From assembly GCA_031290515.1 (NCBI GenBank), contig JAITNK010000026.1:1-39848 (forward strand): 39,848 nt of DNA. The letters run 5' to 3'. The DNA comes from Oscillospiraceae bacterium. Lineage in GTDB: Bacteria; Bacillota; Clostridia; Oscillospirales; Oscillospiraceae. Within the stretch, counting starts at the first letter, position 1, and every line of letters starts with the position of its first letter. Positions 4,609-39,848 of the stretch are shown here, in pieces. Position numbers and translations under genes: made by a program. Under the pieces are notes generated by a model. That model saw nothing but the letters and a program-made list of their open reading frames with translations, was not told where the DNA came from and did no database searches.

Positions 4609-4692
4609 AATAATACCTCCGTTTATTCGGCAAATCGCCGCCGGATATTTCGCGGCGCGCCCGCCGCGAGGTTAATTGACACTTTACCCATA

Positions 4693-35259: not shown

Positions 35260-36267
35260 TTAGGTGTTGTATCCCTCGACCGTCAAAAAGGCGTTACAGC
35301 CGCCGGGCGATCCCAGCGTGATTCCCCCAACGTCCACCTTGAACTGGATAGTTGCGTGCGGCGGGTATTTCGCTATCCAGTCAATCGAGTTTATGCCTTC
35401 GCCGCAGATCGGGACATAGATGCCCGTGCCGACGCCGTCCTGAATCATTTCAATCCTTGAATTCATAGCGAAGGTCTCCAGGTTCACTCCGAAGTGGATG
35501 CGGTGATAGGGCGCGGTGCCCAGGGTCAGCGTCTCTCCGGCGGCGTCCACCGTCATCCCCTCCAAGACAGCGGGTCTGCTGAACTTTATAATCGTCCCCT
35601 GGAGTATCTGACCCGGCTGGTCGTTCATCAGCGAAGCGAATTCGGTGATTCCGCTCGGACCCGCGGGTCCCGCGGGACCTTCTTTACCCGGAAGTCCCTC
35701 CGAACCCGGAGTTCCGTCTTGACCCGCAGGACCTATCGGACCCGTCGCGCCCGTTGCGCCGGTCGCGCCCGCCGGACCCGCAGGACCTGTCGGACCCGGC
35801 GCGCCTGTGAGACCCACAGGACCTGCCGGACCAGTTGCACCCGCCGGACCCGCCGGACCCGCTGCGCCCGCCGCACCCGTGGAACCCACAGGACCTGTCG
35901 GACCCGGCGCGCCTGTGGGACCCGCAGGACCCTCTGGTCCCGCTGCGCCCGCAGGACCTGCCGGTCCCGCCGGACCCGCGGGACCGGCAGGTCCGGGAAT
36001 CCCGGAGCCGCTTACCGCGGCGGCAAGCTTTTCTTTCAGGCTCTCCTCAATCGACGCGGCGTCGCCCAGCAGCTCGCGCACCGAGGAGTTGACTTCTATA
36101 AGCTCCGATATGGTGACGCCGGGAGCCGCGATTGCGGCTTGCAGTTTCTCCCCTTCGGCATTTATGATGTGCGAAAGCGCCGCTTCCTCGAGCGCGATCG
36201 AGGCGAGTATATGAGAGAGTGCCTGGTCGCGGTCAATGTCGCCGATTTCGATTTTTGGCATTGACAT
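35260..36267 (-). CDS. Collagen-like (Gly-X-Y) surface/exosporium-type protein
   Basis: Helical N-domain, ~35 [12 protein letters not shown] triplets, globular C-terminal domain ending [14 protein letters not shown]. Confidence 0.9.
35648..36003 (-). repeat. DNA encoding Gly-X-Y triplet repeat
   Basis: Repeating 9-bp units (ggacccgcc/gcgcccgcc) on plus strand. Confidence 0.9.
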
Positions 36268-37235: not shown

Positions 37236-38078
37236 ATGAAGCGAATGACAATCACGGCAGGGACGCGTGCGGGGTTCTCGGCGGAGCTGCGGCGCGGGGA
37301 GAAGAGCGCGGCGACGGTTGAGAAATATCTGCGGTACGCGCGGCGGTTCTCGTCGGAGCTGTGCGGGGCGGAGCTTACGAAAGACGCGGTAATCGCGTAC
37401 AAGGCGCGCGTTGCGGAACGCTATACGGCGGCGGGCGCGAACGGAATGATTGCGGCGGTGAACAGTCTGCTCGTGTATCTGGGACGCGCGGACTTGAGGG
37501 TATCGCCGCTTAAAGTACAGCGGCGGCTGTTTTCGCCTCCGGAGCGCGAACTGAACCGCGGAGAGTTTGAGCGGCTCGTAGCCGTGACGGAGCGCGGCGG
37601 CGACGCGCGTCTGTCGCTCGCGCTGCGGACGATGTTCGCGACGGGAATCCGCGTCGGCGAGCTGCGCTTCGTCACCGTAGAGGCGGCGCGCGGCGGCAGA
37701 ACGGAAATTCGGCTCAAAGGCAAAATCCGCGAACTGTTTTTGCAGCCGAAACTGTGCAAACTGCTGCTCGGATACGCCAAACGGCGCGGAATCGCAAGCG
37801 GTTCCGTGTTTGTCACGCGGAGCGGCAAGCCGATAGACCGTTTCGCGGTCTGGCGCGGAATGAAGCGGCTCGGCAGACTCGCCGGAGTCGCGGCGGCGAA
37901 AGTGTTTCCGCATAACCTGCGGCATCTGTTCGCCAGGATATTCTACGCGAAAATCCCGAATCTCGCCGCGCTCGCCGACGTTATGGGTCACAGCGACGTG
38001 AACACGACGAGAATTTACACCGCGTCGTCCGGCGCGGAGTTGCGGCGGCAGCTCGATTCCCTGCGGCTGATTCTGTAG
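37236..38078 (+). CDS. Tyrosine recombinase (XerC/D-like integrase)
   Basis: SAM-like N-domain; catalytic TGIRVGEL, KGKIRE, HNLRHLF, GHSDVNTTRIYT; RBS ggaggg. Confidence 0.93.
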   Translation: MKRMTITAGTRAGFSAELRRGEKSAATVEKYLRYARRFSSELCGAELTKDAVIAYKARVAERYTAAGANGMIAAVNSLLVYLGRADLRVSPLKVQRRLFSPPERELNRGEFERLVAVTERGGDARLSLALRTMFATGIRVGELRFVTVEAARGGRTEIRLKGKIRELFLQPKLCKLLLGYAKRRGIASGSVFVTRSGKPIDRFAVWRGMKRLGRLAGVAAAKVFPHNLRHLFARIFYAKIPNLAALADVMGHSDVNTTRIYTASSGAELRRQLDSLRLIL

Positions 38079-38090
38079 CGCAACTAAAAA

Positions 38091-38116
38091 TACCACGGAA
38101 TTGTTATTCCGTGGTA
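38091..38116 (+). repeat. Candidate recombination site L: 10-6-10 lox-like
   Basis: TACCACGGAA-TTGTTA-TTCCGTGGTA, 12 nt after the recombinase stop. Confidence 0.85.
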
Positions 38117-38146
38117 ATACCGTGCCGCGCAGGTGCGGAAAGGCGC

Positions 38147-38177
38147 AAAAAAAGCGCGCCGGAGTTCACGGGCGCGC
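38147..38177 (-). terminator. Minus-strand intrinsic terminator inside the candidate invertible segment
   Basis: Minus strand reads GCGCGCC...GGCGCGC followed by TTTTTTT. Confidence 0.7.
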
Positions 38178-38227
38178 AAAAATGAGCGCGGAAAAGCAAG
38201 CCGGGAAAATTTTTTCTTCTCCGGCGT

Positions 38228-38254
38228 TAAAGTCCTGCGTATTTATGACGATAA
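38228..38254 (+). promoter_or_regulatory. Sigma28/SigD (FliA) promoter inside the candidate invertible segment, directed to csrA
   Basis: TAAA (38228-38231), 15 nt, GACGATAA (38247-38254); consensus TAAA-N15-GCCGATAA. Confidence 0.75.
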
Positions 38255-38318
38255 AATGTAACAGAGCGGAATATCTGCGGCTTCGCGCCGCATATGTACC
38301 GGAATATCGTTTCCCGGA

Positions 38319-38344
38319 TACCACGGAATAACAATTCCGTGGTA
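38319..38344 (-). repeat. Candidate recombination site R: exact inverted copy of site L
   Basis: TACCACGGAA-TAACAA-TTCCGTGGTA on plus strand = reverse complement of site L. Confidence 0.85.
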
Positions 38345-38378: not shown

Positions 38379-38573
38379 ATGCTGCTGCTCAGCGTCAGGG
38401 AAGGCGACTACATAATGATAGGCGGCAACATCAAGGTCAAAATCATCGGCGGGAGCAGCGTCTCCAAAATCGGAATCGAGGCTCCGAAAGACATATCCGT
38501 TAAGCGGCAGTCCGTATACGAGCGCGAAAACGCCGAGGCGGACGGCGAAACCGAGACCGCGGCGGAGCTTTAG
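38379..38573 (+). CDS. csrA: Carbon storage regulator CsrA
   Basis: MLLLSVREGDYIMIGGNIKVKIIGGSSVSKIGIEAPKDISVKRQSVYEREN. Confidence 0.93.
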   Translation: MLLLSVREGDYIMIGGNIKVKIIGGSSVSKIGIEAPKDISVKRQSVYERENAEADGETETAAEL

Positions 38574-38574
38574 T

Positions 38575-39420
38575 ATGGAGAAAAGCTACCGGTTCCGGCT
38601 GTACCCCACGGCGGCGCAGGAACGGCGGATTCGGAGCGCGTTCGACGCGTGCCGGTTCGTCTACAACCGCTACCTCGCTAAGCGCACAGAGGCGTACCGC
38701 GACGGCGGCGGCAACCTCGACTACTACGCGTGTTCCGCGGACCTCACCAAGCTCAAGCGCGAACTGCCGTGGCTGCGCGCGGCGGACTGCACGACGCTCC
38801 AGTCGGCTCTGCGCGACCTCGACAACGCGTTCCGCACGTTTTTCAGGCAGTCCGGGTACCCGAATTTCAAGCGCAAGCGCGACCCGCGCAAGAGCTTCAC
38901 GAGCCGCAGGGTTCCCGGCAAAGAGAACGTCGCGGTCGGCGAAGACTTCGTCAAATTGCCGAAGCTCGGCGAAATCAGGTGCCGGGTGTCCAAGCGGATT
39001 GAGGGGCGCATCGTCTCCGCGACGGTGTCGCAGAGTCCCGGCGGCAAATACTTCGTATCGGTCTGCTGCACCGACGTTGAGACGCGGACGCTTCCCGCGA
39101 CCGAACGCAGCGTCACGGCGGAGGACTTCGCCTTTTCGCCCGACGCAAAGAAAATCGCGCGGCTGACCCGCGGGCTGTCCCGAAAGTCAAAGGACGGCAA
39201 AAACCGCGAGAAAGCCCGGCTCAAACTCGCGCGCGCGTACGAACGCGACGCGAACCGGCGGCGCGACGCGGCGCAGAAGCTCACGACGCGGCTCGTCCGC
39301 GAGAACGACGTTATCCGCGCCGGAGAATCGCAAAACCGCGAGCTGCTCCGTTACCTCGACTACAAGTGCCGCTGGTACGGCAGGGAGCTTATCCGCGGCG
39401 ACGCGCGCCTCTCGGCGTAA
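38575..39420 (+). CDS. TnpB-like protein lacking recognisable RuvC catalytic motifs; TldR-like candidate
   Basis: KSYRFRLYPTAAQERRIRSAFDACRFVYNRYL, SGYPNFKRKRDPRKSFTSR, GLSRKSKDGKNREKARLKLARAYE, TTRLVRENDVI, YKCRWYGRELI are TnpB-typical; GIDLG-type motif, VEDL-type motif, Cys4 zinc finger and DRDxNAA are missing. Confidence 0.85.
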   Translation: MEKSYRFRLYPTAAQERRIRSAFDACRFVYNRYLAKRTEAYRDGGGNLDYYACSADLTKLKRELPWLRAADCTTLQSALRDLDNAFRTFFRQSGYPNFKRKRDPRKSFTSRRVPGKENVAVGEDFVKLPKLGEIRCRVSKRIEGRIVSATVSQSPGGKYFVSVCCTDVETRTLPATERSVTAEDFAFSPDAKKIARLTRGLSRKSKDGKNREKARLKLARAYERDANRRRDAAQKLTTRLVRENDVIRAGESQNRELLRYLDYKCRWYGRELIRGDARLSA

Positions 39421-39513
39421 CCAAGCGGATAACACCTTACGGCGGGACGCGCCGGAATCTACGCCCGGGGAGTCCGCGGACTGCGAACCGGGAAGCCCGA
39501 AAGGGTGCGTCAA
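39421..39513 (+). ncRNA. Candidate omega-RNA/guide RNA scaffold of the TnpB-like protein
   Basis: Downstream of the ORF: CGGCGGGACGCGCCGGAATCTACGCCCGGGGAGTCCGCGGACTGCGAACCGGGAAGCCCGAAAGGGTGCGTCAA with three hairpins; resembles 3' RNA scaffolds of clostridial TnpBs from memory. Confidence 0.6.
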
Positions 39514-39533
39514 GAATATATACATACCTTTCT
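39514..39533 (+). other. Candidate guide segment 3' of the scaffold
   Basis: GAATATATACATACCTTTCT, AT-rich against a GC-rich background; exact boundary unknown. Confidence 0.4.
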
Positions 39534-39675: not shown

Positions 39676-39848
39676 ATGAGAATCCAGAACAACGTACCCG
39701 CGATTAACGCGCACCGCTACTACACGATCAACCAGAGCAATATGACCAAGTCCATCGCAAAGCTCTCGTCCGGCTACCGTATCAACAGCGCGGCGGACGA
39801 CGCGGCGGGTCTCGCAATCTCCGAAAAAATGCGCGCCCAGATTCGCGG
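39676..39848 (+). CDS. Flagellin N-terminus (truncated by window end)
   Basis: [57 protein letters not shown]; translated directly from sequence. Confidence 0.95.

Follow-up and report, generated by a model that had tools for sequence, protein, structure and literature searches.

A candidate tyrosine-recombinase promoter inverton upstream of csrA, a TldR-like gene and flagellin in an Oscillospiraceae bacterium

Introduction

In the hin/fljBA system of Salmonella, a serine recombinase inverts a promoter that drives one flagellin together with FljA, the repressor of the other. The RecV flagellar switch of C. difficile, which controls the flgB operon, comprises a tyrosine recombinase and inverted repeats (154 bp); it holds no functional promoter and acts by Rho-dependent termination after initiation (PMC7446863). 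Promoters that invert between inverted repeats are also known from gut bacteria, such as fimS and the invertons of Bacteroidales (PMC8748976, PMC11892184). According to the main text of a 2026 report, csrA-tldR-fliC loci of Oscillibacter and Flavonifractor carry hin and a FliA promoter inverting on about 120 bp, with inversions found in Flavonifractor plautii; binding of the flagellin 5' UTR by CsrA and targeting of alternative flagellin genes by TldR are reported there as well (PMC13418256). Literature on tyrosine-recombinase flagellin invertons and on Firmicutes invertons yielded no closer match.

The locus described here resembles the latter loci in several respects: an invertase adjoins a FliA/sigma28-type promoter that can invert, csrA lies downstream of this promoter together with a flagellin and a nuclease-dead TnpB and its guide RNA, and dual repression of an alternative flagellin is proposed in both cases. 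It differs from that description in its recombinase, of the tyrosine class with lox/dif-like 26-bp sites instead of a serine Hin, in the length of its segment (202 bp against about 120 bp) and in its predicted target, which lies in a leader here and in the ORF there. The recombinase upstream of csrA2 in the window is of the PF00589 tyrosine type, not a serine Hin, and the word tyrosine is absent from the main text of PMC13418256. With RecV, the locus shares a tyrosine recombinase and inverted repeats serving flagellar genes, but its segment holds a promoter motif instead. The likeness to Salmonella lies in the combination of an invertible flagellin promoter with a repressor, CsrA and TldR standing in place of FljA. 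From the promoter invertons of gut bacteria it is set apart by the csrA2-tldR-flagellin cargo and by the sigma28-type promoter.

Results and discussion

A recombinase with an adjacent pair of inverted repeats

The window, i.e., the whole stretch of 39,848 nt that was analyzed, from a gut-type member of the Clostridia, carries the features listed in Table 1 near its right end. An ORF with long collagen-like Gly-X-Y stretches was also noticed upstream, on the minus strand (35260-36267).

Table 1. Features of the candidate switch locus, with window positions.
Feature	Position	Strand	Description
Tyrosine recombinase, presumed invertase	37236..38078	+	280 aa, complete ORF; profile search
Site L	38091-38116	+	TACCACGGAA-TTGTTA-TTCCGTGGTA
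Invertible segment, 202 bp	38117..38318	.	related segments occur in both orientations
Intrinsic terminator-like hairpin	38147..38177	-	GCGCGCC..GGCGCGC then T7; sequence and fold
Sigma28-type promoter	38228..38254	+	TAAA-N15-GACGATAA; aimed at csrA2, ON as assembled; motif match
Site R	38319-38344	-	exact inverted copy of site L
Expected inverted-form junction			site L joined to TCCGGGAAACGATATTCCGG, the inverted inner right flank
csrA2, second divergent CsrA	38379..38573	+	64 aa; PF02599 profile match
TldR-like, nuclease-dead TnpB derivative	38575..39420	+	281 aa; begins right after csrA2 stop
Guide-RNA scaffold	39439..39513	+	homologous to mobile-TnpB omegaRNA; covarying helices
Predicted guide	39514..39529	+	GAATATATACATACCT; starts after conserved GTCAA scaffold end
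Flagellin gene, cut by contig end	39676..39848	+	truncated ORF

The original prediction placed two exact reverse-complementary sites beside a tyrosine recombinase. Sequence comparison confirmed that site R matches the reverse complement of site L at all 26 nt, with a 202-nt spacer between them, and the identity, when followed in the inverted register, ends exactly at 26 bp on both sides, as had been claimed. Across the window, searched in 720-nt tiles, this pair is the only inverted repeat of at least 16 nt at a spacing of 100-500 nt. Site L starts 13 nt past the stop codon of the recombinase gene, which proved complete and matches PF00589 (profile search, E=7.6e-22); the closest solved structures are XerC-like/XerA and XerD. 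The layout of the sites could be refined. The dyad symmetry of the window copy itself reads 11 bp, 4 nt (TGTT) and 11 bp, but the proposed 10-bp arms around a 6-bp core (10+6+10) agree more closely with the comparison across loci, because the variable middle in relatives is 6 nt wide (e.g., ACAATA in G001:C326).

Sixty genomes were sampled within the genus, the family and the order, and 19 of them contained relatives of the recombinase. One scan of genome contigs yielded just three relatives. Downstream repeats were sought at 19 recombinase loci, the window's among them, whose sequence continues for 500 nt or more past the gene. In 14 of them, the region directly downstream of the recombinase has inverted repeats that match perfectly over 16-26 nt at a spacing of 192-441 nt, and in 15 a repeat of at least 13 nt is present; the other four showed no downstream repeat of at least 13 nt. 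Among the controls, a length of at least 16 nt was reached in 1 of 1900 dinucleotide shuffles and in 2 of 584 other regions of the same loci. The cores of the sites vary by locus (TTGTTA, TTGATA, TCCGTA, ACAATA, TTGACA and others) yet match within every pair, which is the pattern expected from a recombinase needing identical crossover cores. Besides, the arms near csrA2 have a common motif, ACCACGGAA/TTCCGTGGT, that is almost unaltered even in another family. The gene order recombinase-segment-csrA2-flagellin is common to three species of the genus, and the order recombinase-segment-csrA2 was also found in another family. As judged across these loci, the recombinase and its adjacent inverted-repeat pair form a module that is conserved in the order. 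Several contigs (L046, L047 and L140) end within or beside such segments, in a manner resembling assembly breaks at variable junctions, which is suggestive only.

One genome of the same family (G031) contained 15 matches to the recombinase, suggesting many switches per cell.

The segment carries a predicted promoter, and related segments lie in both orientations

The cargo of the segment, a point missed by the original prediction, is a sigma28-type promoter plus a terminator, as recognized from their motifs; also missed were the genes that it would control, csrA2, the TldR-like gene and flagellin. The sigma28-type pattern has a single match in the window, against 0.04 expected, and this match lies inside the segment. 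The other flagellin gene of the same genome, on contig C88, has the same promoter form (TAAA-N15-TCCGATAA). A relaxed form of the pattern matched eight times when about 104 kb of sequence, from the genus and related, was searched: six of the matches fell within segments of this kind, one belonged to the C88 flagellin and one lay elsewhere. In six loci, each segment holds one sigma28-type promoter, which is directed toward the downstream gene (ON) in the window, G001:C83 and G097:C64, and points away from it (OFF) in G010:C68, G001:C326 and G001:C30. In the comparison of orientations, made between species and paralogues with one genome per species and segments that are partly alignable, the window segment gave its better score against that of G010:C68, also upstream of csrA2-flagellin, as the reverse complement (50 vs 30, with no shuffle above 28), while it aligned directly with that of G001:C83 (45 vs 25). 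The segments of G097:C64 and G001:C30 gave no alignment with the window beyond chance, agreeing with it in promoter motif and position alone.

From these comparisons, the ON and OFF forms are taken as natural states across species and paralogues. Inversion of the 202 bp at sites L and R, which the original prediction had put forward in preference to excision, is well supported across species by the conserved module, the paired cores and the opposite orientations.

Promoters were also seen in segments that are not flagellin-linked. In four loci (L031, L040, L041 and L042), a good sigma-70-type promoter faces the downstream gene, and in L039 the best sigma-70-type match of the segment faces away, so that a general family of switches is possible. 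The OFF paralogue of G001:C326 (L058), in the same genus, lies upstream of an ORF that is glycosyltransferase-like by reading, not by profile search, and possibly concerned with flagellin glycosylation.

The downstream genes: csrA2, flagellin and a TldR-like protein

The product of csrA2 matches PF02599 at 58.7 bits, above the cut-off; since it scores beneath the NCBIfam equivalog cut-offs, it is regarded as a divergent CsrA. Within the genus, a second csrA occurs only in the three switch-bearing species, where it adjoins the inverton, the remaining species with a CsrA match having one csrA apiece. In G001 and G010, flagellin comes directly after csrA2; the window species is alone among the three in having a TnpB-like gene between them. 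The window (at 39848) and contig C88 (G000:C88, at 10005) stop at the same point in near-identical flagellin 5' regions, which is an assembly collapse of two flagellin paralogues. A search for the missing ends of both truncated flagellin ORFs found none. Close to its start codon, the C88 leader contains CAAGGAGUG, which is similar to a motif given in PMC13418256, CAAGGAUG.

The TldR-like ORF has lost each of the three acidic segments of RuvC (D, E and the C-terminal D) as well as the zinc-finger end, and these losses are in-frame deletions when judged against mobile TnpBs at 46-53% identity. In the tree, the protein falls among mobile TnpBs, whereas the TnpB-like proteins of the hin-linked loci L123 and L131, together with that of L129, form a separate clade (support of 1.000), share 25-29% identity with it and have their catalytic residues substituted rather than deleted. 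Relatives of hin adjoin flagellin in the same order (L123, L128, L131 and L139), most of them with csrA or a TnpB-like gene. Given the tyrosine class of the recombinase and the separate lineage of the TldR, the two appear to have been separately recruited, making the locus a convergent variant and not a Hin-type member.

Eight TnpB omegaRNAs, with GTGTCAA at their ends, could be aligned to the guide-RNA scaffold. The folding energy of the guide RNA on its own is unremarkable (z of -0.46), hence covariation was counted instead. In the three named helices, 94.8% of the cells pair and seven pairs are altered on both sides, a level that none of 500 shuffles reached (nine sequences, with no control for relatedness). 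Pairing falls to 28-50% when the partner columns are slid by 1-3. Rfam gave no match in the guide-RNA region. By these sequence features the protein is TldR-like: the RuvC active site has been lost and the guide-RNA scaffold kept.

In a whole-genome search with 18 nt and at most three mismatches, a region at an RpiR-like regulator was the only match besides the guide itself; it was rejected as a guide target. The left-end flanks of five relatives point to TTTAT (4/5) as the motif (TAM). The guide begins with GAATATA, and the predicted TAM plus this 7-nt seed, TTTATGAATATA, is found once in the 1.96-Mb genome, in the leader of the C88 flagellin. It lies there about 90 nt past the promoter, with about 100 nt remaining to the start codon. 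Agreement between guide and target runs for 7 nt after the TAM, then stops (9/16 overall). As this seed match ends at 7 nt and was spotted before the TTTAT motif was derived from relatives, it is suggestive. The C88 leader is thereby a possible target of the TldR guide; both flagellin ORFs, the place of the published targets, are truncated.

Proposed switch and alternative explanations

Taken with the leader match, the invertible promoter and the csrA2, TldR and flagellin operon make the locus resemble a flagellin phase switch in the style of Salmonella. We consider it very probable that promoter inversion driven by the recombinase toggles csrA2-tldR-gRNA and flagellin. The recombinase would bind both 26-bp sites and recombine them, inverting the segment reversibly in cells. 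In the ON state, the sigma28-type promoter, if active, would read via site R into csrA2-tldR-gRNA, and transcription would probably continue beyond the guide RNA into flagellin. CsrA2 would then repress translation of the other flagellin, the transcription of which would be stopped by the TldR and its guide at TTTAT+GAATATA in the leader, and the downstream flagellin would replace it. In the OFF state, the promoter would be aimed back at the recombinase, and the terminator, brought by inversion between the recombinase gene and csrA2, would face plus-strand traffic and meet incoming transcription. With the promoter and the terminator so placed, the operon would be silent.

A rather unlikely alternative, albeit one deserving attention, is that the inverton is real but governs csrA2 and flagellin only, the TnpB-like gene being an insertion in decay that regulates nothing. 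It would agree with the sister species having recombinase, switch, csrA2 and flagellin but no TnpB-like gene, and with a guide-target match of just 7 nt. Against decay, the ORF is intact and adjoins the csrA2 stop, its catalytic residues were lost by in-frame deletions, the scaffold helices are preserved through two-sided changes, and the TAM plus seed occurs once in the genome, in the leader of the other flagellin.

It is distinctly improbable that the switch is a relic whose sites persist while inversion has ceased, locking the promoter ON. A single segment orientation is indeed all that the assembly holds. In another genus, moreover, the csrA2 locus L121 (G166:C18, csrA2 at 4614) retains one degenerate site just upstream and no recombinase relative was detected on its contig; this possible relic implies that switch loss does occur. 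In the window, by contrast, the two sites have kept a perfect match at all 26 nt, and nothing interrupts the ORF of the recombinase.

Very little credence is given to the sites being only terminators or RNA hairpins, at the recombinase end and before csrA, without recombination. Each site does fold into a perfect 11-bp hairpin, and on the minus strand site L is followed by TTTTT. However, the plus strand has no U-tract, and termination does not call for asymmetric loops that are identical or for exact inverted pairing; nor would terminators account for cores that are the same within loci and divergent between them, or for relatives in opposite orientations.

Finally, an origin as a MITE-like insertion, or as some other mobile element bounded by inverted repeats, which the original prediction had set against its own reading and which the short segment with inverted ends could recall, is hardly tenable, as the 1,955,107-base assembly has just these two copies of the 26-nt site with up to three mismatches allowed, their place right after the recombinase gene is kept in many genera, and the flanks have no evident target duplication.

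Returning to recombinase-driven promoter inversion, the broader reading is that an RNA-guided phase switch for flagellin was assembled here a second time and independently, in which a tyrosine recombinase takes the place of Hin, a separately domesticated TnpB serves as repressor, and one inversion would coordinate the repression of one flagellin, translational by CsrA2 and RNA-guided transcriptional by TldR, with expression of another. We hold the chances of this broader reading to be evenly balanced.

Similar switches are already known, and what appears to be new here is the unrelated recombinase class combined with a differently derived repressor. If this reading is true, the same circuit would have evolved at least twice, with recombinases of different classes and TnpBs of different lineages. 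This would argue that these Clostridia favor flagellin switching in which DNA inversion is combined with CsrA and with RNA-guided repression. The module also gives a simple route to phase-variable genes in the order, by inspecting the sequence just downstream of this recombinase family.
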